Assembly (NCBI RefSeq): GCF_003611635.1
Contig: NZ_RAVZ01000029.1
Coordinates: 1-45,149, forward strand
Reading direction: 5' to 3'
DNA length: 45,149 nucleotides
From: Corallococcus terminator
Lineage (GTDB): Bacteria > Myxococcota > Myxococcia > Myxococcales > Myxococcaceae
Positions 31,572-44,796 of this stretch are shown here, piece after piece. The translations under genes were made by a program, and so were the position numbers. The notes below the pieces were generated by a model that saw only the letters and a list, made by a program, of their open reading frames with translations, ran no database searches and was not told where the DNA came from. Each line of letters opens with the position of its first letter. Positions within the stretch are counted from its first letter, which is position 1.

Positions 31572-32513
31572 ATGACGACCTACCTCGATTTCTTCGAACT
31601 CAGCCAGGAGCCGTTCTCCAACGCTCCGGTGAGCCGCTTCTATTACAACTCCGCGCAGCACTCGCAGGCCCTCACGCGGCTGATGCATGCCGTGGGCTAC
31701 ATGAAGGGCCTGTCCATCCTCGTGGGCGACATCGGCGCGGGCAAGACGACGCTCGCCCGGCGCATGCTCGACTCGCTGCCCGAGTCCGAATACGAGGCCG
31801 CGCTGCTGGTCATCATCCACTCGGGCATCACCGCCCAGTGGCTGCTGCGCCGCATCGCGCTCCAACTGGGCGTGGAGAATCCGGCGCAGGAGAAGCTGGC
31901 GCTGCTGTCGCAGCTCTACCAGCGGCTGCTGCAAATCTATGAGTCCGGCAAGAAGGCCGTCGTCCTCATCGACGAGGCGCAGATGCTGGAGACGCGGGAG
32001 ATCATGGAGGAGTTCCGGGGGCTGCTGAACCTGGAGGTCCCCGAGCGCAAGCTCATCTCCTTCGTCTTCTTCGGCCTGCCGGAGATTGAAAAGAACCTGA
32101 AGCTGGACCCGCCGCTCGCCCAGCGTGTGGCGCTCCGCTACAAGCTGGAGCCCTTCACGGCGGAGTCCACCGAGGCGTACGTGAAGCACCGGCTGCGGCT
32201 CGCCGGGTGCCCGCGGATGCCCTTCACGCCGGAGGCGCTGCTGGCCGTGCACGAGCACTCCGGTGGTACCCCGCGCGTCATCAACACCCTGTGCGACAAC
32301 GCCCTCTTCGAGGCGTTCCTCGCGCGGCAGGAGTCCATCGACGCGGAGCTCGTGCACCGCATCGGGACGAACCTGGGCCTGAAGGGTGGCTCGGCTGCTT
32401 CCCAGGAGAGCGAGCGGCCAGGCGTGCCTGCCTCGTCGCTGCCCCGGACGGCGAACACGAAAATCGATCTGGCGGAGATCGACCGCTACCTCGAGGGACT
32501 CGGTAAGCTCTAG
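31572..32513 (+). CDS. ExeA/GspA-like AAA ATPase
   Basis: A 313-residue AAA+ ATPase of the ExeA type. The N-terminus (YLDFFELSQEPFSNAP) is typical, then Walker A GDIGAGKTT at 52-60, Walker B with DEAQ at 134-137, and sensor and lid regions (GTPRVINTLCDNAL). In Aeromonas, ExeA works with ExeB to place the type II secretin through the peptidoglycan. Here there is no ExeB-like gene nearby and no obvious membrane or peptidoglycan-binding segment in the C-terminal extension. It is followed at once by the tamB-like gene. Confidence 0.88.
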   Translation: MTTYLDFFELSQEPFSNAPVSRFYYNSAQHSQALTRLMHAVGYMKGLSILVGDIGAGKTTLARRMLDSLPESEYEAALLVIIHSGITAQWLLRRIALQLGVENPAQEKLALLSQLYQRLLQIYESGKKAVVLIDEAQMLETREIMEEFRGLLNLEVPERKLISFVFFGLPEIEKNLKLDPPLAQRVALRYKLEPFTAESTEAYVKHRLRLAGCPRMPFTPEALLAVHEHSGGTPRVINTLCDNALFEAFLARQESIDAELVHRIGTNLGLKGGSAASQESERPGVPASSLPRTANTKIDLAEIDRYLEGLGKL

Positions 32514-32517
32514 GGGC

Positions 32518-35500
32518 TTGTCTCCCCCCAGCCGCAACGGTGCGCGCAAGGCGCTGCTGTTGATGCTCCTCGCGGTGTCGGGGAGCATCCTGCTGTTGCG
32601 CCAGCCGTTCACCTGGGACGCCGCCTGCACGGTGGCGCGCAGGCACCTGCCGGACGTGCTGGGCCTGGACGTCGGCATTGGCCGGTGTGAGTTGGATCCG
32701 CTGGGCTCGCGCGTGCTGCTGCGCGGCGTGTCGGTGTTCGCGCCCGGTTCGGACACGCCGCTGTTCGCCGCGGACGAGGCGGAGGTGGGGCTGGGCTTCC
32801 TGTCGCCCCTGTCCCGCCGCTTCGTGCTGGGTCACGTGAGCGTGCGCCATCCGCGCGTGGTGTTGGATCTCTCGAAGCCTTCGCCCGACAAGCCCGCTTC
32901 GGACGGGACGTGCCCGCTCACGCCGCTGGAGCGCGTGGGCGTGGGGCGCATGAGCATCACCGGCGCGGAGGTGCGGCTCGCGCTGCCCGAGGGCCGCAGC
33001 GTGGAGGTGGAGAACCTCGACGTGGGGTGGGTGGAGCGCTGGGGCGTGATGGAGCTGGAGGTCGGCGCGCGGCGGGGCGTGGTGCGTCTGGGCGCGGGCG
33101 GCGGCGAGCTGGCGCTGGGGCAGTTGGCCTTCACCGGCGCGTTGGATCCGGACGAAGGGCTGCTCGACGTGGAGCGCGCGGAGGTGACGCTCGACGACAT
33201 CACCGCCACGGTGTCCGGCCGCGTGGAGACGCTGTGCCATCCCACGCTCGCGCTGGACGCGCAGGTGTTCCTGCCGCTGCGCACGCTGACGCAAGCGAAG
33301 CTGCTGCCGCGGCCCGCCACCGGGCATCTGTGGACGCGCCTGTCGCTGTCCGGGAAGCCCTCCGCGCTGGCGGTGGGCGCGGACGTGTCCGCGAGCAACC
33401 TGTCCTATGAGCAGTACGGTCCACTGAGCCTCACCGCGCGCCTGTCGTACGCGGGGGACCGCGTGCGCGTGGAGTCGCTGGAGGCCCCGCTGGGTGGGGG
33501 CAAGGTGAAGCTGTCCGGCGCGCTCAAGCTCACGCCGGAGCTGCCGGTGGAGCTGACGCTCCAGACGGAGGACGCGTCGTTCGGCCGCATCCTGGAGCGC
33601 GCGGGCGTGGCCGGGTCCTGGGTGGACTTCCCCGCGTCCGCGAACGCGCACCTCACCGGCACGCTGCTGCCCCGGCCTTCTCTGTCCGGGCCCCTGGACC
33701 TGAGAACCGGCCACTTCACCCTGGCCACGCGCGCGTTCGATGCGCCGGTGCGCTCTGGCAAGACGCTGCTCACCTTCGACAAGGGCCGCGCGCAGACGAC
33801 CGTGAAGCTCCAGGGCGACCGCGTGTCCTTCTCCCGGCTCACGGTGGAGTCGGGCAAGTCGCGCGTGCATGGCGAGGTGACGCTCTACTTCGACACCGCG
33901 CGGGGCCTGGACATCCAGGGCAACGGCGAGGTGGAGCTGTCGGACTTCGGCCACATCGCGGAGCTGCCGTGGGCCGGGCGCGGGTCGGTGAACTACTCCG
34001 TCGTGGGGCCGCTCGCCGACGTGAAGGTGGACGCGTCGCTGTCGCTGCGCGACTTCGTCTTCTGGGGCTTCAACCTGGGGGTGACGCAGGGGAAGCTGTC
34101 GTACTCCAACGGCGTGCTGTCGTTCCCGTCGCTCACCGGGCAGAAGGGACGCACGCAGTACTTCGGCAAGGGCGCGCTCACGTTCGCGCGGCTGCTGCAC
34201 CTGCGCCTGGACCTGAACGTGCCGCAGGGACGCACCGAGGACCTGGTGGACCTGGTGGCGGGCCTGAGTCCTTCCATCGCCGTGATCCAGGGGCAGTTCG
34301 GCGGCGCGGCATCCGGGCGCGTGGAGATCGACAGCCCGCTGGAGAAGCTGGAGGGGCTGGTGGCCTTCGACCTGAAGGACACCACGTACCTGGGGCGCCG
34401 GCTGGGCGCGGGCGCCGCGCGGCTGCGCTTCGTGGACGGCAAGGAGATGGTGCTGGAGCGCACCGTGCTGGACGGCCGGCTGGGACGCACCTGGGTGGAG
34501 GGCACCTTCGCCTTCGCGGGCGGACTGGACTACCGCTTCGGCGGAGAGAACCTGTCGCTCGCGGAGGCCGTGGGCCCGGAGACCGCGGAGGAGATGGGCA
34601 TCCAGGGCACGCTGGCGCTCGCGGGCACCGTGGCGGGCACGGCGGACAAGCCGGACATCCGGGCCACGCTGAAGGGCCCACGCATCACCTTCGCGTCGCG
34701 CGACCTGGGCGCCATGGACCTGGCGCTGCACCAGGACGGCAAGGCGATGCGCATCACCGGCCATCCGTTCCGCGACGCTCAGGGCTCCATGTCCATGACC
34801 GTGAAGGAGCCCTACCTCTTCGAGTCCACGTTGGAGCTGCTGCTGCCCGAAATCCGTCCGCTGCTGCCCCAGGTGCAGGCGCTCGCGGGCGTCACCGGGA
34901 TGCTCGCGGGGCGGGTGACGTTGCAGGGCCCGCTGTTGCAGCCGGACGCGTACCAGGTGGCGGCCACGCTGCGGGAATTGACGCTGGCCCGGGGCGACCT
35001 GCGCGGGCGCAACCAGGCGCCCATCGTGCTGGCCTACGCCGGGGGACGACTGGACGTGCAGCCCTTCCGCTTCAGTGGCGCGTCGGTGGACGTGACGCTG
35101 GGCGGTTGGATGAGCCGGACCCGGATGAACATGAGTTTGCGCGAGGGCCGCATGGACGTGCGGCTTCTGGAGCCGCTCCTGCCGGGCATGGAGCGCGTGG
35201 GCGGCCAGCTTCGCGTGGACGCGGAGGCCACCGGCACGCTGGACGCGCCGTCGGTGGTGGGCACCGCGGAGCTGTCCGACGTGCGGATGTCCATGCGCGA
35301 CATGCCGCTCACCGTGCGCGCCATGTCCGGACGCCTGGAGATGACGGGCCAGCGCGTGCTGCTGGAGCACCTGCAGGCGCAGGTGAACGAAGGGCAGGTG
35401 TCCGCGCGCGGCGACATCCGGCTGGAGCGCTTCGTGCCCAAGCGGCTGGCGCTGACGCTGCAACTGGACGCGGTGCCGTACCGGATGACGGAGGACCTGC

Positions 35501-36438
35501 CGCTCACCGTGTCCGGCCTGCTCCAGGTGGTGGGGCCGCCCACCGGACCCACCGTCACGGGTGGGCTGGACATCGTGAAGCTGCGCTACTCGAAGCCGCT
35601 GGACATCGAATCGCTGCTCAAGACGATGCAGAAGAAGCCTTCGCTCGCGGTGGGCGGCGGGGGCGAGCGCGCCCGGGACGCCTTCTTCACCTGGGACGTC
35701 AACGTGCACTTCGGCGATGTGCGCGTGGACAACAACCTGGCCAAGGCGCGGCTGTTGGGCGACGTGCGGCTCACCGGCACCGACGTGCGGCCGGGTCTCC
35801 TGGGCCGGGTGGAGGCGGCGGAAGGCAGTCAGGCGTTCTTCCGCAACAACCTCTTCACCATCGAGCAGGGGCAGTTGGAGTTCCGCGACGCGTCCGGCAT
35901 CGACCCGGTGTTCGAGGTGCAGGCTCAGACGCAGGTGCGCGAGTTCGTGGTGAAGCTGCACGCGTTCGGCCGGCCGGCCAACCCCCTCATCGTGCTGTCG
36001 TCGGAGCCGGTGCTGACCGAAGGCGACATCCTGTCGCTCTTGACGCTGGGCGTGACGAGCGCGGACAAGGACACGGCGGCGTCGGCAAGCTACGGTCTGG
36101 CGGCGGAGGCGTTGTTCAACGTTTCCGGCCTGGACCGGCAGGTACGACGCTTCCTGCCCAGCAACCCCGTTCTCCGGGATTTGTCCCTGCAGATCGCCAC
36201 CACCTACAACGACGCCACCCGGCAGGCCGAACCCACCGCACAACTGGAGTCGAAGTTCCTCTCCGAGCAGCTTAAAATCGGGATGACCCAACCGGTGAGT
36301 GGGCGTGGTACCCGGGCACGCGCTGAGTATCGCTTCGACGACCGTCTTTCCGCACAGGCCCAGTGGGACAACGAGAACAGCCAGGCGTCGTTCGGAAACC
36401 TCGGGCTCGAGCTGAAGCTTGGCTGGGAGGTCGAGTAG
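32518..36438 (+). CDS. tamB: TamB-like translocation/assembly protein
   Basis: A 1306-residue protein with one N-terminal membrane anchor (ARKALLLMLLAVSGSILLL) and a very long repetitive beta-rich body, as in AsmA/TamB-family proteins that bridge the periplasm and are implicated in outer-membrane protein assembly and lipid transport. The C-terminal 300 residues match the TamB domain (DUF490): PLIVLSSEPVLTEGDILSLL, then SKFLSEQLKIGMTQPVSGRG and a final strand LGLELKLGWEVE. The start is uncertain. TTG at 32518 keeps the basic residues before the anchor and sits four bases after the previous stop; an ATG at 32563 is the alternative. It overlaps the Omp85 gene. Confidence 0.88.
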   Translation: MSPPSRNGARKALLLMLLAVSGSILLLRQPFTWDAACTVARRHLPDVLGLDVGIGRCELDPLGSRVLLRGVSVFAPGSDTPLFAADEAEVGLGFLSPLSRRFVLGHVSVRHPRVVLDLSKPSPDKPASDGTCPLTPLERVGVGRMSITGAEVRLALPEGRSVEVENLDVGWVERWGVMELEVGARRGVVRLGAGGGELALGQLAFTGALDPDEGLLDVERAEVTLDDITATVSGRVETLCHPTLALDAQVFLPLRTLTQAKLLPRPATGHLWTRLSLSGKPSALAVGADVSASNLSYEQYGPLSLTARLSYAGDRVRVESLEAPLGGGKVKLSGALKLTPELPVELTLQTEDASFGRILERAGVAGSWVDFPASANAHLTGTLLPRPSLSGPLDLRTGHFTLATRAFDAPVRSGKTLLTFDKGRAQTTVKLQGDRVSFSRLTVESGKSRVHGEVTLYFDTARGLDIQGNGEVELSDFGHIAELPWAGRGSVNYSVVGPLADVKVDASLSLRDFVFWGFNLGVTQGKLSYSNGVLSFPSLTGQKGRTQYFGKGALTFARLLHLRLDLNVPQGRTEDLVDLVAGLSPSIAVIQGQFGGAASGRVEIDSPLEKLEGLVAFDLKDTTYLGRRLGAGAARLRFVDGKEMVLERTVLDGRLGRTWVEGTFAFAGGLDYRFGGENLSLAEAVGPETAEEMGIQGTLALAGTVAGTADKPDIRATLKGPRITFASRDLGAMDLALHQDGKAMRITGHPFRDAQGSMSMTVKEPYLFESTLELLLPEIRPLLPQVQALAGVTGMLAGRVTLQGPLLQPDAYQVAATLRELTLARGDLRGRNQAPIVLAYAGGRLDVQPFRFSGASVDVTLGGWMSRTRMNMSLREGRMDVRLLEPLLPGMERVGGQLRVDAEATGTLDAPSVVGTAELSDVRMSMRDMPLTVRAMSGRLEMTGQRVLLEHLQAQVNEGQVSARGDIRLERFVPKRLALTLQLDAVPYRMTEDLPLTVSGLLQVVGPPTGPTVTGGLDIVKLRYSKPLDIESLLKTMQKKPSLAVGGGGERARDAFFTWDVNVHFGDVRVDNNLAKARLLGDVRLTGTDVRPGLLGRVEAAEGSQAFFRNNLFTIEQGQLEFRDASGIDPVFEVQAQTQVREFVVKLHAFGRPANPLIVLSSEPVLTEGDILSLLTLGVTSADKDTAASASYGLAAEALFNVSGLDRQVRRFLPSNPVLRDLSLQIATTYNDATRQAEPTAQLESKFLSEQLKIGMTQPVSGRGTRARAEYRFDDRLSAQAQWDNENSQASFGNLGLELKLGWEVE

Positions 36439-39400
36439 CCGCGCTGACCGCGGTGCTGCTCCTCGTGTGCGCGTGGCCCGCCTTCGCGGCGTCCCCCACT
36501 GGCTCGGGCGACAGCGACGACGCCGCCCCCAACGTGATGGCGGTGGAGCTGCACCTGCCCGAAGGCGTGGCCTCCGAGGGCCTTTCGGCGCTCGTCACCC
36601 TGCGCAAGGGCCAGGCGCTGACGCCGGGCGCGGTGCGCCGGTCCGTGGAGCAGTTGTTCGCCACGGGGCGCTTCGCGGACGTGGTGGCCACCACGGAGGA
36701 CGTGCCCGGTGGGGTGCGGCTCGTCTTCCAGCTCACGCCGCTGCCCCAACTGGCCCACGTGACGGTGCGGGGCAACCGCGTGCTCACGACCGCGGAGCTG
36801 CTGGATGCGAGCGGCCTGCTGGAGGGTGGGCCCCTGGATCCGGAGGAACTGGACACGGCGGCGGCCTCCGTGCGCGAGGCCTACCAGCGCAAGGGCTATG
36901 ACGCCGTCTCCGTCCGGGTGGAGGAGCAGTCGGTGCCCGCGGGCGGCGTGGCGGTGACGCTGGTGGTGGAGGAGGGCAAGCCCACCCGCGTGCGGCAGGT
37001 GACGTTCTCCGGCAGCCCCGCGCTGCCCCTGCCTCGCCTCGTGGAGGCGCTGGGAATGGTGCCCGGCGAGGTGTTCGACCGGGCGCGGTTGGATTTGGGC
37101 CTGGAGCGGCTGCGGGTGCAACTGCGCGAGGGACGGCACTGGCGGGCGTGGGTGGGGCCTCCCACCATCGTCGTCGAGGACAGCGAGGCGTCCGTGGCGG
37201 TGCCGCTGGCGGCGGGGCCGGCCTTCCACCTGCGCTTCACGGGCAACCGCCACTTCCCGGCCACACTGCTGGCGCGGGTGGTGGCCTACGACGGCGAGGA
37301 GGCATTGGACGAGTCCGTGGCGGCGAGGCTCGCGCGGCGGCTGGAGGCGTTCTACCGACGGCGGGGCTTCCACGACGCGCGCGTGCGGGCGCTGGAGATG
37401 ATCCGCCCGGATGGCGACGCGGCAGTGCTGGGCTTCCAGGTGGAAGAGGGGCCTGCGCTTCGGGTGACGGAGGTGCGCTTCCACGGCAACGTGGCCGTGT
37501 CGTCGGAGGCGCTGCGCGCGCAGCTCTCCAACCAGGTGGCGGCGGCGGAGACGTGGCCGGAGCTGGACCTGCCCATGCGCGAGGATCCGCTGGAGACCGA
37601 GGGGCGCGGACGCCGCCACGGGACGAGCGTGGTGTCTCCGCCGGACCCGTCCACCGTCTATGTGGAGGACATGTGGCTGGAGGCCGTGGACGCGATGACG
37701 ACGGCCTACCGCGAGCAGGGCTTCGCCTCCGCGCTGGTGACCTTTCGCGGCCTCACGGTGGACACGGTGCACCACACGGCGGAGGCGGACTTCGACGTGG
37801 AGGAGGGGCCCCGCGCGCTCCTGCTCGACACCGCCTTCGAGGGCCTGCCTCCGGAGGTGAACCCCTCGTGGGTGACGCTGCTCTTGCCCAAGGGCACGCC
37901 GCTGAGCTTCGAGCGGGTGGAGCAGGCGCAGGCGGCGCTTGAGCGCGGACTGGGCCGCGAGGGCTACCTCTTCGCTCGCGTGAGCAACGCGGTGTCGGTG
38001 GACGGGGAGGGCACGTCCGCGCAGGTGGCGTTCCGTGTGGATGCCGGGCCCCGCGTGCACGTGGGGCAGGTGCTGCTCCAGGGGCTGAAGCGCTCGGATC
38101 CGGACGTGGTGCTGGCGCAGTTGGACCTGAAGCCCGGGGCGCCCCTGTCGGTGGAGGCGCTGGCGGATGCGCAGCGGCGGCTGTCCCGGCTGGGGCTGTT
38201 CCGTCAGGCGGAGATTTCACTCGCGGACCCCAACCGGCGTGAAGCCTCCAAGGACGTGCTGGTGACGGTGCAGGAGCGACCGCGCATCGACGGTGAGGTG
38301 TCCGGCGGCTACTTCCTGGTCGACGGTCCTCGCATCACGTTGGACACGGCGTGGCGCAACCTGGATGGCCGGGGTCTGAACCTGCTGGCGCGCGGCAAGG
38401 TGAACTACGCGGGCGCGAGCGCGGAGGCCTTGTCGTCCTCGCGTCTGCCCACCGGGTGCAGCACCGGCGAGCTGTCGGGCGAGGCGTGCGACTCCGACCT
38501 GGATGGCTTCAGCGGCCTGGGCGGACGCGGCAACCTGGCGCTGTCGCAGCCCCGGTTGTCCTTCGTGGCACCGCAGGAGATTGGCGCCCGCCTGGACCTG
38601 ATTGGCGAGCGCGTGCACCGGCCTTCGTACCTGTCCACCCGGTTCGCGGCGGTGGTGGGCGCGGACTGGGCGCTGGCGTCGTGGGTGAACGTGTCGCTCC
38701 AGTACGAACTGGAGAACAACCGGCTGCGCTCGCGCGCGGGCGTGCTGGAGCTGGTGAACCGCGCGGACCAGGAGCGGCTGCGCTACCCGTACGGCGACTT
38801 CGCGCTGCACTCGCTCCGGCCGTCGGCGACGCTGGACTTTCGCGACGACCCGGCCAACCCCCGGCGCGGCATGGTGCTCAGCACCAGCGCGGAGTTCATG
38901 CGCGGCATCAGCGTGCACCCCACGGATGTCGCGGGCAACCGCGTGCCGGAGTTCCCCATCGACGGTGTGAAGCTGTCGGGCAGCGTCAGCGCGTACGCGC
39001 CGCTGGGACGCCGCGCGAGCGTGGCGGTGAGCGTGCGTGCGGGCACCATCGTTCCCTTGACGGAGGGCTCGCAGAACATCGGCTCCAAGCTGTTCTACCT
39101 GGGCGGTTCGTCCAGCTTGCGCGGCTTCCGTGAAGACGGCGTGCTGCCGCAGGACGTGCGCGAGGTGCTCCACCAGCGGCTGGCCGCGTGCCGCGCGGTG
39201 ATTACCCCGGCGGGCTGCCCGGATGACCTGAAGGCGGTGCTCTCCGGCCAGGTGCCCGCGAGCCAGGGCGGTGAGCTCTACACGCTGGGCAAGGCGGAGT
39301 TGCGCGTGCCGGCGGTGGCGGCGGTGGACCTGGGCCTGTTCTTCGAGGTGGGCAACCTGTGGCAGGACCGCACCCTCTTCGACGCGAAGGTGCTGCGCTA

Positions 39401-39533
39401 CGCGGCGGGCGTGGGTCTGCGCTACGTGACGCCCGTGGGCCCGCTGGCCTTCGATGTGGGCTTCAACCTGGACCGCGACGAAGCGCTCAACGAAGCCCCC
39501 ACGCAGTTCCACTTCAGCATCGGTACGTTCTGA
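36363..39533 (+). CDS. Omp85 (BamA/TamA-like) protein with about seven POTRA repeats
   Basis: An outer-membrane barrel of 1056 residues. A signal peptide (VAALTAVLLLVCAWPAFA) is followed by POTRA-like repeats at about 58-125, 129-205, 208-283, 287-363, 366-481 (with an insertion at 391-435), 485-560 and 565-638, then a barrel to the C-terminal Phe. The Omp85 loop-6 motif is present as SLRGF in GGSSSLRGFRED. TamA has three POTRA domains and BamA five. Pairing with the tamB-like gene, which it overlaps by 76 bases, suggests a TamA role. GTG 36363 leaves a long basic N-terminus; a start further in, close to the hydrophobic core (36423, CTG), is possible. Confidence 0.9.
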   Translation: MGQREQPGVVRKPRARAEAWLGGRVAALTAVLLLVCAWPAFAASPTGSGDSDDAAPNVMAVELHLPEGVASEGLSALVTLRKGQALTPGAVRRSVEQLFATGRFADVVATTEDVPGGVRLVFQLTPLPQLAHVTVRGNRVLTTAELLDASGLLEGGPLDPEELDTAAASVREAYQRKGYDAVSVRVEEQSVPAGGVAVTLVVEEGKPTRVRQVTFSGSPALPLPRLVEALGMVPGEVFDRARLDLGLERLRVQLREGRHWRAWVGPPTIVVEDSEASVAVPLAAGPAFHLRFTGNRHFPATLLARVVAYDGEEALDESVAARLARRLEAFYRRRGFHDARVRALEMIRPDGDAAVLGFQVEEGPALRVTEVRFHGNVAVSSEALRAQLSNQVAAAETWPELDLPMREDPLETEGRGRRHGTSVVSPPDPSTVYVEDMWLEAVDAMTTAYREQGFASALVTFRGLTVDTVHHTAEADFDVEEGPRALLLDTAFEGLPPEVNPSWVTLLLPKGTPLSFERVEQAQAALERGLGREGYLFARVSNAVSVDGEGTSAQVAFRVDAGPRVHVGQVLLQGLKRSDPDVVLAQLDLKPGAPLSVEALADAQRRLSRLGLFRQAEISLADPNRREASKDVLVTVQERPRIDGEVSGGYFLVDGPRITLDTAWRNLDGRGLNLLARGKVNYAGASAEALSSSRLPTGCSTGELSGEACDSDLDGFSGLGGRGNLALSQPRLSFVAPQEIGARLDLIGERVHRPSYLSTRFAAVVGADWALASWVNVSLQYELENNRLRSRAGVLELVNRADQERLRYPYGDFALHSLRPSATLDFRDDPANPRRGMVLSTSAEFMRGISVHPTDVAGNRVPEFPIDGVKLSGSVSAYAPLGRRASVAVSVRAGTIVPLTEGSQNIGSKLFYLGGSSSLRGFREDGVLPQDVREVLHQRLAACRAVITPAGCPDDLKAVLSGQVPASQGGELYTLGKAELRVPAVAAVDLGLFFEVGNLWQDRTLFDAKVLRYAAGVGLRYVTPVGPLAFDVGFNLDRDEALNEAPTQFHFSIGTF

Positions 39534-40091: not shown

Positions 40092-41249
40092 TCAGTCCAC
40101 GTGGAGCGTGTAGCTCTGCTGGGTATTGCTCAGCAGGTCCTGGACGTGGAGCATGAAGGTGAAGTCGCCCGCGACCGTGGGTTTGCCGGAGAGGATGCCC
40201 TTCTTCGTGTCCAGGAGGATGCCCGTGGGCAGCGCCCCGTCCTTGATGCTCCACGTGAACGAGTTGCTGCCGCTGATCGTCTGGAAGACGTAGGCGTAGT
40301 CGGAGCCGACGCGCGCGTCTGGCACGCCGCGCGAGAGCAGCTTGACGAACGCGGTGACGTCCGCGAGGGCGATGGAGAGCGTGCGGGTGGCGCTCTGGGG
40401 CGGCGTGTCGCTGTCCGTCACCACCACCGTGAAGGTCCGCAGACCCTCCTGGGTCGTGGTGCCCGTGACGCCGCCGTTCGCGCTCAACGTCAGCCCCGAC
40501 GGCAGCGACTGCTGCGGGGCGAGGGCGAAGAGGTACGGAGCCTTGCCTCCAGTGGCGGAGACGGTCTCCGTGTAGGGATTGTTCCTGGGCGCGTCCGCGA
40601 GCGGCGCGGGCCCCGCGAGGCGCAGCACGGGCCGCACGCTCAGTCGCAGGCTGCCGCTGGCGCGCTTCATGGGGGTGCTCTCGTCGGTGACTTCCACCGG
40701 GAAGAAGACATCTCCCGCGCGCGAAGGCGTGCCGGTGAGCAGGCCTCCGGTGCCGAGCGAGAAGCCCTCCGGGAGCTGGTTCGTGAAGCTGAACGTGTAG
40801 GGTGGGGTTCCTCCCTGGGCCTGGAGCTGTTCCGTGAAGTAGACGGTTTCGGTGGCCCCATGCATGAGGGTGGACGTCAGCGAGAGCGCGGCGGGGCCCG
40901 CGTCCGGTGTCGTGCCTGCATCTGGTTGCGTGCCCGCATCGGCGGTGCCCGCATCGACAGTGCCCGCATCGACAGTGCCCGCGTCGGCCTCGCCTGCATC
41001 CGGCGTCGTGCCTCCATCCGGCTCCGTGCCCGCGTCCTCCTCGGAGATGGGCGGGTCGCACTGGCGGCCTTCGCCACAGGCCGGCAGGCACCGGTTCACA
41101 TCGGTGAGGCAGTAGGTGCCCGTCGGACAGCCCCCCGATGCATCACACGCGGCGAACCGTGAGAGGTCGGGCGCGAACGTGCAGGACTGCAACGTGAGGA
41201 GGAGGGCGCTGATCAGCGCTGCCTGGAGTTTCCGAAGGTGCGTCCTCAT
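40092..41249 (-). CDS. lipoprotein with Ig-like (He_PIG) repeats
   Basis: A 385-residue exported protein. The lipobox is LQSC (Cys23). A Cys-rich segment follows (about residues 30-65, with CDASGGCPTGTYC and CLPAC), then a low-complexity linker of repeated DAGT units (about 72-118). Three putative Ig-like repeats of the He_PIG type come next, each showing the LPxGhxL...G.hxGTPxxAG pattern (for example LPEGFSLGTGGLLTGTPSRAG and LPTGILLDTKKGILSGKPTVAG, each cited in part). It is the last gene of the leftward caspase operon; its ATG overlaps the previous stop (ATGA). It is a likely surface or periplasmic binding protein, with no known ligand. Confidence 0.82.
   Translation of the reverse strand: MRTHLRKLQAALISALLLTLQSCTFAPDLSRFAACDASGGCPTGTYCLTDVNRCLPACGEGRQCDPPISEEDAGTEPDGGTTPDAGEADAGTVDAGTVDAGTADAGTQPDAGTTPDAGPAALSLTSTLMHGATETVYFTEQLQAQGGTPPYTFSFTNQLPEGFSLGTGGLLTGTPSRAGDVFFPVEVTDESTPMKRASGSLRLSVRPVLRLAGPAPLADAPRNNPYTETVSATGGKAPYLFALAPQQSLPSGLTLSANGGVTGTTTQEGLRTFTVVVTDSDTPPQSATRTLSIALADVTAFVKLLSRGVPDARVGSDYAYVFQTISGSNSFTWSIKDGALPTGILLDTKKGILSGKPTVAGDFTFMLHVQDLLSNTQQSYTLHVD
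40906..41040 (-). repeat. tandem short repeats encoding the DAGT linker
   Basis: Units of about 15 bases (plus-strand form GTGCCCGCATCGACA and close variants) recur here and encode repeated Asp-Ala-Gly-Thr peptides. Unit length is a multiple of three, so copy-number change would alter linker length without breaking the frame. Confidence 0.6.
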
Positions 41250-42004
41250 GGCCACTCCCAGATGAACGACACCGCGCCCCCGAGCCCGAGCAGCGCACCC
41301 ACGCCCATCAGCACGTTCGACGTGCGTGCCTGCCGACGACCCGCGTCCAGCCGCGAAGCGAAGCAGCCCGAGAAGTCCTCGCCGGCCGAGGCGCACTCGC
41401 CCCCGTTCTTCGACACCCGGGACTCCGTGCTCCGCGCCGCGATTCCAAAGCCCACGCCCACCGCGAGCGCTACGCCGCCCGCGCCCATCATCACCTTGGG
41501 CAGCAGGCGTGAACCCCGGGGCGCGGCCTGCTTCACCGTCTCCGTGCGCAGGGGCGCCCAGACCTCCTGCAACGCCTGCCGGGCCCGCGTGTCCGCCTCG
41601 CCCGGCGTCAGGGCCGGTGCCTCGAACTGCGCGCGCGTCTCCGTGCCCCGCGCATCCGTCACCGTGAGCGCCACGCTGCGCCTGCCGCCCACGCCCAGCG
41701 CCACGCCGCGCACGAGCCTGCGCGCACCCAGCGACACGGCCTGCGCGCTCCGGCACTCCGTGTTGCCACACGATGACAGCGACGCGCCCGCCCCGCGCAG
41801 CCGCGCAGCCGTGTCCTCGCGCGACTCCAGACACGCATCCGGCAGGGCGGACACCGCGCGCCGCGTGGCGTCCTCCAGCGCACGCGCGTCGGCGGAAGGC
41901 AGCGCCACGCGTTCGAAGGGCATCAGCACCACGCGCGTGTCCGCGTCGCAGGCGACAGCACCTTGCGCGAGCCAGAGCAGAAGGGAGGTGGCGGACGCGC
42001 TCAT
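41246..42004 (-). CDS. envelope protein with two C-terminal membrane segments (252 aa)
   Basis: Not recognised as a named family. A signal-peptide-like N-terminus (ATSLLLWLAQGAVA) is followed by a domain of about 140 residues whose opening (DTRVVLMPFERVALPSADAR) and pattern resemble TolB/CsgG-like periplasmic domains; this likeness is tentative. Two hydrophobic segments (about residues 171-191 and 230-248) flank a Cys-containing loop. This tail layout recurs in myxobacterial envelope proteins as far as I recall. ATGA overlaps on both sides place it firmly in the caspase operon. Confidence 0.75.
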   Translation of the reverse strand: MSASATSLLLWLAQGAVACDADTRVVLMPFERVALPSADARALEDATRRAVSALPDACLESREDTAARLRGAGASLSSCGNTECRSAQAVSLGARRLVRGVALGVGGRRSVALTVTDARGTETRAQFEAPALTPGEADTRARQALQEVWAPLRTETVKQAAPRGSRLLPKVMMGAGGVALAVGVGFGIAARSTESRVSKNGGECASAGEDFSGCFASRLDAGRRQARTSNVLMGVGALLGLGGAVSFIWEWP

Positions 42005-43260
42005 GGCACCAGCGACGCGTCGGCTTCGTCGGGCGGCGGCGTGATGCCGAAGCTCGCCATGTAGCCCCGGTAGAAGCGCTGTCCGAAGGGCACGGAGAAG
42101 AGCTTGTCCCGGAAGGCATCCTCCACGGCGCCCCGGGCCGCCACGGTGGACTCGCGCCAGGCCAGCCCCCCTGCGTCCACCACCTCCGCCGCGCGCGTGA
42201 GGTTGAACGTCGCTTCCCGACCCGTGCCGCGCAGGTAGTAACCCCGCCCCACGGGCAACGACACCACCAGCGGCCGTTCGCGCTCCTTGTGCAGCTCCAC
42301 CACGCGGATGCCTCGTGCGTCCTCCACCCACAGCCGGCCCTCCAGGCCCGTGGGCACGAGCAGGTAGCCCAGCGACGCGGCGGTCCCCATGTCCGTCAGC
42401 GCGAACGCCCGGTCCAGCGCGGGCGGCTGGATGAACACTCGCGGCTGTCCCCGCACGTCGTCCAGACCCTGGCTGGCGGCGGCCACGAAGGCCCGCAGCT
42501 CCGCGTAGTCCACGCGTCCGTCGCCGTTGACGTCGCCCGCGCCCGACAGCGCCGAGCGCACCATGTGGCTGAAGACGCCGGAGCGGATGGCGCTCCACTC
42601 GTGGCTCTCCTGCTCCGACGACGTGGACAGCACCACGCCCACCTGCGGGAAGCGCTCCAACTCGCGCCCGCCCAGCAGGCCCTTCACGGCGTCCGCGTAC
42701 GCGGGCCCCACCGGCAAGGAGCCGCGCGAGTGCACGAAGAAGTACGAATCACACGCGTCCACGATGAGCTGGATGAAGGACGCCTTGCTCGGCGCGAGCA
42801 CGCGCGAGAACAGCTCCGTGCGCGTCAGGGGCCCGTCCAGCAGGCTCACCGTGCCTTCTCCCGCGGCGCCGCGCTTGCCGTGGCCCACGAAGACGAAGGA
42901 CAGCACCGGCGCCTGTCCCCGCGCCCGGTCCTGGGCCATGCGCTCATTCAGGCGGCGGAGCGCGTCCTCCAGGGAGGCATGCGTGGGAGGGCGCGTCTTC
43001 GCGGCGAGCCCCGGGTGCAGGGCCTGCGTGTCGGCGTCCAGCACACTGAGCAGGACGACCTCGCGCGAGCGGGGCGCGAACAGCTCGTAGTACCGGGCGC
43101 CGTCGTCGTCGGCGTAGCGCAGGGGGGCCTGGGACTTCTCCGTGCCCGTGTTGCTGGCGACGATGAGCGCGTAGTGCACCTGTTCGGGCGCGGCGCTCGC
43201 GGCGGTTCCCACCAGGAGGAGCACACCCAGGGCCAGGGTCCTGTGGGAGGGCGTTCGCAT
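42001..43260 (-). CDS. secreted caspase-like (C14) protease with EF-hand loop
   Basis: A 419-residue protein with a signal peptide (cleavage near ASAA-PEQ). The caspase p20-like domain has the catalytic dyad visible as His127 (FVFVGHGKRG) and Cys170 (LIVDACDS), preceded by the nucleotide-fold-like strand YALIVASNTGTE and the DDDGARYYELF helix typical of bacterial C14 proteins. A perfect calcium-binding EF-hand loop follows at 243-254 (DVNGDGRVDYAE). The C-terminal 150 residues form a beta-rich domain of unknown function. It is the first gene of a leftward three-gene operon and is divergent from the ECF-type sigma factor gene. Its substrate is unknown. Confidence 0.88.
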   Translation of the reverse strand: MRTPSHRTLALGVLLLVGTAASAAPEQVHYALIVASNTGTEKSQAPLRYADDDGARYYELFAPRSREVVLLSVLDADTQALHPGLAAKTRPPTHASLEDALRRLNERMAQDRARGQAPVLSFVFVGHGKRGAAGEGTVSLLDGPLTRTELFSRVLAPSKASFIQLIVDACDSYFFVHSRGSLPVGPAYADAVKGLLGGRELERFPQVGVVLSTSSEQESHEWSAIRSGVFSHMVRSALSGAGDVNGDGRVDYAELRAFVAAASQGLDDVRGQPRVFIQPPALDRAFALTDMGTAASLGYLLVPTGLEGRLWVEDARGIRVVELHKERERPLVVSLPVGRGYYLRGTGREATFNLTRAAEVVDAGGLAWRESTVAARGAVEDAFRDKLFSVPFGQRFYRGYMASFGITPPPDEADASLVP

Positions 43261-43354
43261 GGGGAGATGGCGCGGTGCGCCGGAAAGAAAGGATGCCACG
43301 GAAAACGTCCGACAATCCACTGGGGCCTGCTCGCGACAACATGCGGATGACGGG

Positions 43355-43371
43355 ACCGCGATGGTCGCGGT
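43355..43371. promoter_or_regulatory. inverted repeat in the caspase/sigma-factor divergent gap
   Basis: ACCGCGA and TCGCGGT form a seven-pair inverted repeat with a three-base centre, 14 bases before the sigma-factor ATG. It may be an operator or an mRNA hairpin. The 124-base divergent gap must hold the promoters of both operons; no clear consensus boxes were seen in it. Confidence 0.35.
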
Positions 43372-43384
43372 AAGCCCCTGAGGG

Positions 43385-44014
43385 ATGGAGTGGGATGACG
43401 ACACGCTGCGCCGTTTTCGAGAAGGCACCCCGGAGGTGTTGGCGGACGTGTATCGCGCGCACGCGGAGCCGCTCGCCCGCCTGCTCAAGGCGGCCGCATG
43501 GCGGGGGGCCTTCACCCGCTTGAGGAACGCGATGGAGTTGGAGAACACCCTGCTGGAGACCTTCGCCCGCGCGTTCGAGCCCCGCACGCGCGCGGCCTAC
43601 AACGGCACGCGTCCCTATTCCCACTTCCTGATGGGCATCGCGCGCAATGTCCTCCTCGAACAGTCGCGCGAGCGGGAGCTGGTGGGGCGGGACGTGCCCT
43701 TCGAGGGCCTCACCGAGGCGTCGGGCGAGGACGGCGGGTTGGCGGAGGTGCTGGAGGACCGCGAGGTGGAGACGCTGCTCGCGGTGTTCAAGGATGGACT
43801 GTCGCGCGAGGAGCACCGGCTGTTCGAGCTGCGCTTCGGCGAAGGCGTGGCCCAGGAAGACGCCGCCACGGCGCTGGGTCTCACGCGCATCCAGGTGCGG
43901 CGGCGGGAGTTCGGGTTGAAGTCCAGGCTGCTCGGGTTCCTCCAGTCGAAGGGGTACCTGGAGGACCTGGAGACGCAGGGCTGGAGCTTCTTCAAGCGAC
44001 GGAGTGCACGATGA
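43385..44014 (+). CDS. ECF-type RNA polymerase sigma factor
   Basis: A 209-residue sigma factor. Region 2 spans about residues 17-95 (VYRAHAEPLARLL ... SHFLMGIARNVLLEQSRERE, quoted in parts), and region 4 spans about 135-190 with a helix-turn-helix around VAQEDAATALGLTRIQVRRRE. There is no region 1 or 3, so it belongs with ECF (group IV) factors, although somewhat divergent. GAGGG abuts the ATG. The stop overlaps the anti-sigma gene by four bases (ATGA), so the pair is co-expressed. The divergent caspase operon is the obvious candidate target. Confidence 0.85.
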   Translation: MEWDDDTLRRFREGTPEVLADVYRAHAEPLARLLKAAAWRGAFTRLRNAMELENTLLETFARAFEPRTRAAYNGTRPYSHFLMGIARNVLLEQSRERELVGRDVPFEGLTEASGEDGGLAEVLEDREVETLLAVFKDGLSREEHRLFELRFGEGVAQEDAATALGLTRIQVRRREFGLKSRLLGFLQSKGYLEDLETQGWSFFKRRSAR

Positions 44015-44796
44015 GCCGCTGTGACGACCGTCGGGTGAAGCAGGCGATGGCTGCCCTCTTCGAGAAGGGCTCCGAGGCGCTGGACGCGGCCGGCTTCCAA
44101 CACCTGCGCGCGCACCTGGCGACGTGCCCTTCGTGCCAGGAGACCTACGACCGGCTGTCCCGCGTGGAGTCCGCGCTGGAGAAGCGCGCCCTTCCCCAGG
44201 CGAAGAGCGCGCTCTTGGAGCAGGCGCTGTGGGCGCGGATGGCGAAGCAGTCCAGTCCCGCCCCGCGTCCGGTGGTGGTGGAGCCCGCGCGCCGGTGGTT
44301 CACGTCCCCGTTTCTCGTGCCCCTGTCGCTGGGCGCGGCGGCGGCCGCCGTGGCGCTGATGGTCGTGGTGCCGTCGCTCCAGCCTCCGAGGGAGACGGCG
44401 CCGGAGTGGCAAGCGCGCTCGGCGGCGCCGGGCGTGGGGGCCTGGGGCGTGCGGGCCTTCTGCATCGCGCCTGCGGGGGCGGTGGTCGCGGAGGCCCGGC
44501 CGGGTGGGACGCTGGCGTGCGCGGAGGGCCACGCGGTGCAGTTCAGCTACACCGCGCCGGAGCGCGCTCGCCTGTCGCTGGACGGCACGTCCGTGACGGG
44601 GGAGGCGCTGCACTTCTTTCCGCGCGAGGGTTCGGCCTCCGAAGTCGCGGCCGGCGTGGACGTCGCGTTGCCGTTCAGCACGCCGGTCCAGGGGGGGTGG
44701 CTGACGGGCCCCGTGCTGGTGCGCGCGAACTTCACGGACGCGCAGGGCAGGACGGTCGCGGACACGCTGGTGACGCTCACGCCCGTGGCCCCCTGA
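44011..44796 (+). CDS. zinc-finger anti-sigma factor, membrane-anchored
   Basis: A 261-residue protein. The N-terminal ZAS-type zinc motif H35-x3-C39-x2-C42 (AHLATCPSC) is the hallmark of anti-sigma factors that hold ECF sigma factors at the membrane. A membrane segment (about 100-120) follows, then an exported beta-rich sensor part with two Cys (FCIAPAG, LACAEGH). It is translationally coupled to the sigma gene. The trigger for release is unknown. Anti-sigma factors of this type are often cleaved by proteases, and a secreted protease is encoded divergently. Confidence 0.87.
   Translation: MSRCDDRRVKQAMAALFEKGSEALDAAGFQHLRAHLATCPSCQETYDRLSRVESALEKRALPQAKSALLEQALWARMAKQSSPAPRPVVVEPARRWFTSPFLVPLSLGAAAAAVALMVVVPSLQPPRETAPEWQARSAAPGVGAWGVRAFCIAPAGAVVAEARPGGTLACAEGHAVQFSYTAPERARLSLDGTSVTGEALHFFPREGSASEVAAGVDVALPFSTPVQGGWLTGPVLVRANFTDAQGRTVADTLVTLTPVAP

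Follow-up and report, generated by a model that had tools for sequence, protein, structure and literature searches.

An exported caspase-like protease as candidate site-1 protease for a partner ECF anti-sigma factor in Corallococcus terminator and other Myxococcota

Contig NZ_RAVZ01000029.1 of Corallococcus terminator (assembly GCF_003611635.1) was analysed over a stretch of 45,149 nucleotides, here called the window, in which positions 40,092-44,796 carry a five-gene locus. On one strand, a gene for an extracytoplasmic function (ECF)-type sigma factor overlaps that of a zinc-type anti-sigma factor; on the other, a gene for a caspase-like protease with a predicted signal peptide precedes two genes for envelope proteins. 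The sigma factor, anti-sigma factor and caspase genes form a partnership found widely in Myxococcota, the active site of the protease is invariant, and a basic-small residue pair is found both in a linker of the anti-sigma factor and in a loop of the protease, its basic member changing from R to K in both proteins between two clades. On this evidence it is proposed that the exported caspase is a dedicated site-1 protease that would release the ECF sigma factor, the three proteins together forming an envelope-to-gene signalling module; we regard this proposal as fairly probable.

Conservation of the gene partnership

A contig scan recovered 129 caspase relatives, of which the best 80 were taken as named Myxococcota loci and their partner genes placed by profile search. 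These loci come from Corallococcus, Myxococcus, Archangium, Enhygromyxa, Plesiocystis, and many metagenome-assembled Myxococcota. Sigma factor, anti-sigma factor, and caspase genes occurred together in 69 of the 80, with 49 of these three-gene loci co-directional (in the order sigma, anti-sigma, caspase) and 20 divergent. Among the other 11, six end with their contig just upstream of an anti-sigma gene, three lie on contigs that stop ≤520 bp from the caspase, and one (L148) has the sigma gene only; the last, L144, is considered below. When 12 loci without an earlier sigma match were checked under laxer settings, both partners were found in eight and two were seen to end near the caspase, the rest being L144 and L148. 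Approached from the sigma factor, all 17 close homologs (E below 1e-60) in 11 genomes lay within 6 kb of a caspase-model match; the same genomes held 75 caspase-model matches, many of them distant, and 42 had a sigma-model match within 6 kb. Downstream genes varied across loci in strand, spacing, and length, with the caspase as the constant third member, as judged from rough gene calls.

Protein distances were correlated among the sigma factors, anti-sigma factors, and caspases of 67 loci (Mantel r 0.90, 0.93, and 0.91; permutation maxima ≤0.21), although such correlations would also be expected from shared descent alone. One decayed module (G061:C1:7115201-7117485) has stop codons in both the sigma frame and the caspase frame, which suggests that the two genes decay together.

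The surroundings of the best caspase matches were compared in 40 loci (L036-L075), leaving out genome G002, where the caspase is split over two contigs. All five genes were encoded in 37 of the 40 (L036-L072), and both envelope genes were missing from L073-L075. L036-L071 are divergent in layout, and in L072 the sigma and anti-sigma genes are co-oriented with the caspase operon; in three of the 36 divergent loci (L052, L053, and L054), a gap of ~3.3-5 kb separates the caspase and sigma genes. The BamA-like and small genes to the left of the locus were present in all 14 same-genus loci (L036-L049) and in none of L050-L072; because these neighbours are restricted to the genus and the five genes are kept beyond it, the block appears to travel while its surroundings change. 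Co-occurrence of the five genes in related genomes, on which the first-pass annotation of the window had staked its grouping of them, is thus nearly complete within these 40 loci. As a unit the grouping stands in part: the core of sigma factor, anti-sigma factor, and caspase is widespread, and the two envelope genes belong to only part of the family. The divergent arrangement, likewise part of that description, characterizes one group, given that 49 of 69 modules are co-directional; our guess is that the co-directional layout is the older.

Active site and paired motifs

Among 55 caspase representatives sharing below 60% identity, the catalytic His127 and Cys170 were present in all 55, and D51-D53, D168, E221, D243, and E254 were also unchanged throughout. 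The window protein scored 11.9 bits against Peptidase_C14, below the cut-off of 21.4, and 33 of 59 relatives matched this family at E up to 0.01. Because a sequence search against solved structures returned almost exclusively EF-hand chains, with a few unrelated weak matches and no caspase, the fold was predicted instead. In the predicted model (mean predicted local distance difference test score, pLDDT, of 84.7), residues 26-296 adopt a clan CD fold, best matched by legumain (Z 17.9, root-mean-square deviation 3.1, 232 residues aligned) and metacaspase 9 (Z 17.6, deviation 3.5, 230 aligned). All 55 caspases have R179, and G is the next residue in 51 of them (aligned column 180 is G in 52 of 55); pLDDT is under 50 at residues 180-198, so that R179 stands at the start of a disordered stretch that joins the p20 and p10 parts of the catalytic domain, and from this position the protease may be expected to cut itself there. 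Its signal peptide, read by eye, would direct it to the periplasm. An EF-hand-like loop in the window caspase matched EF-hand_5 below cut-off (E 0.0012, 18.6 bits against 25.9), and D243 and E254, invariant as stated above, are its first and last ligand positions. One caspase relative also matches PF13505, a beta-barrel domain of the outer membrane (E 8.3e-5), and a fusion of these two domains would be unusual.

The window sigma factor matched Sigma70_r4 at 26.7 bits, over the cut-off of 24.1, and had no Pfam region 2 match; against TIGR02937 it scored 30.2 bits with a cut-off of 42.9. Among 21 sigma relatives (E up to 0.1), region 4 was matched in 21, Sigma70_ECF in 12, and region 2 in eight. 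The anti-sigma factor matched zf-HC2 at 15.7 bits, below the cut-off of 22.2, and all 22 of its relatives matched at E up to 0.5 (best 1.4e-6); the zinc-binding anti-sigma motif, comprising Cys4 and His35-x3-Cys39-x2-Cys42, was found in 38 of 38 aligned anti-sigma rows. One transmembrane helix, a linker, and a beta-sandwich at about 146 to 258 make up its architecture in the AlphaFold model, in which the sandwich is confident, and a fold search with this outer domain gave only generic beta-sandwich matches (best Z 9.4). The anti-sigma factor is connected with the neighbouring sigma factor, which it would be predicted to bind, by the overlap of the two genes and by the correlated distances.

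In 51 diverse anti-sigma representatives with a mean identity of 24.5%, column 136 is always basic (46 R and 5 K) and column 137 always small (46 G, 4 S, and 1 T); in the same set, conservation is 76% at the zinc Cys columns, and the linker columns 129-147 other than these two are at most 51% conserved. The residue is similarly constant in the full alignment of 95 rows (five unsuitable rows removed and the window protein added), with 89 R and 6 K. Residues 130-140 have pLDDT under 50, placing R136 outside the confidently folded part. A motif of a hydrophobic residue, two of any kind, R or K, and then G or S, within 30 residues after the helix, was found in 89 of 96 caspase-linked anti-sigma factors versus 3 of 26 unlinked ones, and its G-only version in 66 of 96 versus 0 of 26. 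The linked set comprised 99 distinct proteins, of which three were dropped; the unlinked set was drawn from zf-HC2 proteins with no caspase match nearby, as judged by eye (40 fetched, 14 dropped for want of a clear helix or of sufficient sequence). Of the seven linked misses, L133 is a run-on frame and not a real anti-sigma factor; in the remaining six, K, A, or T comes directly after the basic residue.

A second clade of sigma-linked caspases (the K clade, with loops read from the alignment) has K-G at the R179-G180 column in 20 of 20, and its anti-sigma linkers have K-G in all 19 found, one locus having yielded none. Position P3 is R in 19 of the 20 caspases and 17 of the 19 anti-sigma factors of this clade, and is Q, T, A, or others in the anti-sigma factors of the R clade. 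Many K-clade caspases match PF00656 over cut-off, and several have DUF4384-like partners. Twenty further C14 loci were also examined, 11 of them without an upstream sigma match. Eight of these 11 (L262-L269), which also lack a zinc finger, have no basic-Gly at the loop position, with R-S nearby in L267; another eight of the 20 have K-G at the same place in the loop, seven of them with a sigma match. In L275, L276, and L277, A-T-C replaces D-x-C at the active site, K-S lies nearby, and a zinc-finger frame is found upstream; L275 and L276 have an upstream sigma match.

Since a basic-small motif is shared by flexible segments of the two proteins and undergoes the same clade-wide change, the simplest cause would be one enzyme specificity acting on both, with the caspase cutting its own chain as well as the partner anti-sigma factor. 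Bacterial orthocaspases are described as cleaving on the far side of positively charged residues (PMC6426788). Direct contact between the two proteins is predicted from the paired motifs, but it could occur without cleavage: the linker motif could instead occupy the caspase active site as a pseudo-substrate that keeps the protease off until a signal arrives. A disordered, membrane-proximal basic-Gly fits cutting better than tight inhibition, in a judgement made without a search for precedents, and the pseudo-substrate explanation is regarded as quite improbable.

Proposed mechanism and its alternatives

Under the proposed mechanism, the ECF-type sigma factor would be held by its single-pass, zinc-type anti-sigma factor, and the partner caspase would be exported to the periplasm and mature by cutting itself after R179. 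Once triggered, possibly aided by calcium at the EF-hand-like loop, the caspase would perform site-1 cleavage of the anti-sigma factor, cutting after R136 in the linker that adjoins the outer face of the membrane; an M50-family site-2 protease and then cytoplasmic proteases would free the sigma factor. Genes for M50 proteases (PF02163) are present in the same genome (best 1.5e-71), an unspecific finding given that 14 of 14 control genomes also have PF02163. In this lineage, the Ig-like lipoprotein and the two-helix envelope protein may be outputs or sensing aids. Both cleavage positions, the sequence of steps, the nature of the trigger, and the regulon are predictions made from sequences and models. 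Action of the protease on the anti-sigma factor had been raised in the first-pass annotation as a secondary possibility, and it has become the most supported of its claims, through the linker motif, the paired loop, the R-to-K change, and the correlated distances, with the cutting itself predicted.

Several observations weigh against this mechanism. Neither partner lies within 8 kb of the caspase in L144, one of the 80 named loci, and 33 of the 75 caspase-model matches in the 11 genomes had no sigma-model match within 6 kb. The best fold matches are a tie of legumain, which is Asn-specific, with metacaspase; given this tie between C13 and C14 and a C14 score below cut-off, the protease is filed as caspase-like. 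In essence, the joint R-to-K change amounts to a single contrast, that of one deep clade with another, and the five anti-sigma representatives of the R clade that bear K (L072, L140, L150, L156, and L160) have partner caspases that keep R (L116 standing for L072 in this comparison). The loop motif also occurs without an upstream sigma match, as K-G in L272, as K-G one residue earlier in L280, and as K-S in L277, despite the zinc-finger frame upstream of the latter. In the anti-sigma factor, P121 (94%) and R94 (90%) are as conserved as R136, so conservation alone singles out no cut site. The unlinked control proteins have unrelated outer domains, and the motif could therefore be inherited with the domain; moreover, in five genomes all 16 DUF4384 matches lay within ~2 kb of a caspase match, as judged by eye, which makes domain and motif inseparable in this comparison. 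The main weakness is that the comparison has no caspase-free anti-sigma control with the same outer domain.

These last points are what would be expected if the motif were a structural or export-related feature of the outer domain and the caspase were linked only through the same stress response: the outer domain accompanies the linked anti-sigma factors, with no close caspase-free homolog to compare, and P121 and R94 are no less constant. Such an origin fits poorly with the position of R136 outside the confidently folded part, among neighbours that (save 137) are little conserved, and with the way in which R136 and the caspase loop both switch to K from one clade to the other; it is considered highly improbable, and the least probable of the explanations weighed here.

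Of the 36 divergent loci L036-L071, 28 carry a promoter-like element, TTG-N18-GGATYG, that is directed towards the caspase gene and is always 27 bases long. Its exact form, TTGTC-N16-GGATYG, occurred at 26 sites in four genomes, and the same pattern read backwards at none. On the side of the sigma gene, a match was found only in L071/L115, where the spacer is one base shorter, and the element was not found in the ~300 bases scanned before the sigma gene of co-directional modules; an autoregulated sigma promoter was rejected on this distribution. In three of the four genomes (L251, L237, and L236), a second copy of the element precedes an orthologous gene by ~170 bp, and the product of this gene matched methyltransferase models only below their cut-offs; a small regulon is therefore possible, with this methyltransferase-like gene as a possible second member.

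The element bears on an output interpretation, in which the caspase and both envelope proteins would be induced by the sigma factor as its effectors, as the first-pass annotation favoured, and control of the anti-sigma factor would fall to other proteases. An operon shared by caspase and envelope genes, a conserved element facing that operon, and the second copy before the methyltransferase-like gene all agree with it. It does not account for the caspase being constant while downstream genes vary, leaves unexplained both the basic-small linker motif and its likeness to the protease loop, and gains nothing from co-directional modules, whose sigma genes showed no such element in front of them; overall, we think it unlikely to be the better account. 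Release of the sigma factor by the caspase is accordingly retained as the preferred interpretation, and the features to which it refers are collected in Table 1.

Table 1. Features of the sigma factor, anti-sigma factor, and caspase locus, in window coordinates.
Feature	Position	Strand	Basis
ECF-type sigma factor, 209 aa	43385..44014	+	Sigma70_r4 over cut-off
Zinc-type anti-sigma factor, 261 aa	44011..44796	+	ATGA overlap with sigma gene; zinc motif; AlphaFold model
Anti-sigma R136-S137, candidate cleavage site in juxtamembrane linker	44416..44421	+	Column conservation; low pLDDT
Putatively exported caspase-like (clan CD) protease, 419 aa	42001..43260	-	Catalytic dyad; predicted fold; C14 in relatives
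Catalytic His127 codon (GHG) of caspase	42880..42882	-	Alignment of 55 representatives
Catalytic Cys170 codon (D-A-C) of caspase	42751..42753	-	Alignment of 55 representatives
Caspase R179-G180, candidate self-processing site at start of disordered p20/p10 loop	42721..42726	-	Conservation; pLDDT
EF-hand-like calcium loop D243-E254 of caspase	42499..42534	-	EF-hand_5 match below cut-off
Secreted/envelope protein, 252 aa, with C-terminal two-helix hairpin (read from sequence)	41246..42004	-	Downstream of caspase in 37/40 loci
Lipoprotein with three He_PIG Ig-like stretches	40092..41249	-	Pfam; same 37/40 loci
Promoter-like element TTGTC-N16-GGATTG facing caspase gene	43313..43339	-	Kept in 28/36 divergent loci

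All five reading frames annotated earlier were present at their coordinates when checked on the sequence, and the ATGA overlaps were seen directly at 42001-42004, 41246-41249, and 44011-44014. In a Pfam search of the window proteins, the He_PIG stretches of the lipoprotein matched at 1.2e-25 and the 252-residue protein had no match over cut-off; five Cys are invariant across 19 aligned rows of the latter, and its helices, like the lipobox of the lipoprotein, were read by eye. To the left (window 32386-39533) lie genes for a TamB protein (PF04357, 6.3e-48) and for a BamA-like one that combines POTRA repeats (2.1e-48) with an Omp85 barrel (1.5e-30); both accompany the locus only inside the genus. 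A defence-system interpretation was rejected, as PADLOC models gave zero matches to the five proteins at E up to 1, and so were plasmid-borne copies, none of which was found by tblastn with the caspase at E 1e-5.

Known systems and significance

Two known systems, RseA/DegS/RseP and CASP-sigma/Csx30/Csx29, invite comparison with the proposed module; DegS is a PDZ serine protease and not a caspase, and Csx30 is soluble and is not known to have a zinc motif. The first shares with the proposed module an ECF sigma factor and a membrane anti-sigma factor, with a DegS cut described as preceding the RseP and ClpXP steps (PMC10028731), and differs in that the caspase would here replace DegS as the site-1 protease. 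In the second, a caspase-type protease, Csx29, cuts Csx30 and relieves the inhibition of the ECF-like factor CASP-sigma, and its authors liken Csx29/Csx30 to DegS and RseA (PMC10028731). That case indicates that a caspase-type enzyme can do such work; however, Csx29 is CRISPR-guided, whereas the module considered here combines a protease that has a predicted signal peptide with an inhibitor that bears both a zinc motif and a membrane helix.

Sigma-70 factors were reported in 2012 in four Myxococcus xanthus metacaspase operons, and in operons of Anaeromyxobacter, Haliangium, Sorangium, Ralstonia, and Fibrobacter (PMC3501461). The passage describing them names no anti-sigma partner, motif, or mechanism, and the window caspase itself scores below the C14 cut-off. 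The pairing is therefore not wholly undescribed, and the earlier remark that a described system with this gene set was not known needs narrowing; what holds of it is that no report of an anti-sigma partner, paired motifs, or a cleavage model for metacaspase operons was found in the open-licence literature. For ECF54, which has carboxypeptidase, subtilase, and CHAT-domain neighbours, proteolytic ECF control has similarly been proposed from gene context (PMC8999054). Caspase genes also adjoin an ECF sigma gene in Caspase-EACC2 systems, which differ in having caspase and EACC2 domains, variable C-terminal domains, and a separate TPR gene (PMC8195603); the word 'anti-sigma' is absent from the text of that paper.

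The broader form of the proposal, that across Myxococcota exported caspases are dedicated site-1 proteases that would cut themselves and their partner anti-sigma factors at a basic-Gly, with R-G and K-G having co-evolved, seems to us to stand at about even chances; several parallel channels may then run in one cell, and the genomes concerned often hold several sigma-linked caspases. To our knowledge, the substrates of most bacterial caspase homologs are unknown. If the proposed mechanism is true, one caspase family would gain a definite target, a predicted residue at which it is cut, and a ready read-out in sigma-dependent transcription, and an exported caspase would join the known kinds of site-1 protease, in parallel to the CRISPR-associated Csx29. 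If it is true for Myxococcota at large, a large group of bacterial caspases would have a defined substrate and a role in gene activation and not in cell death.

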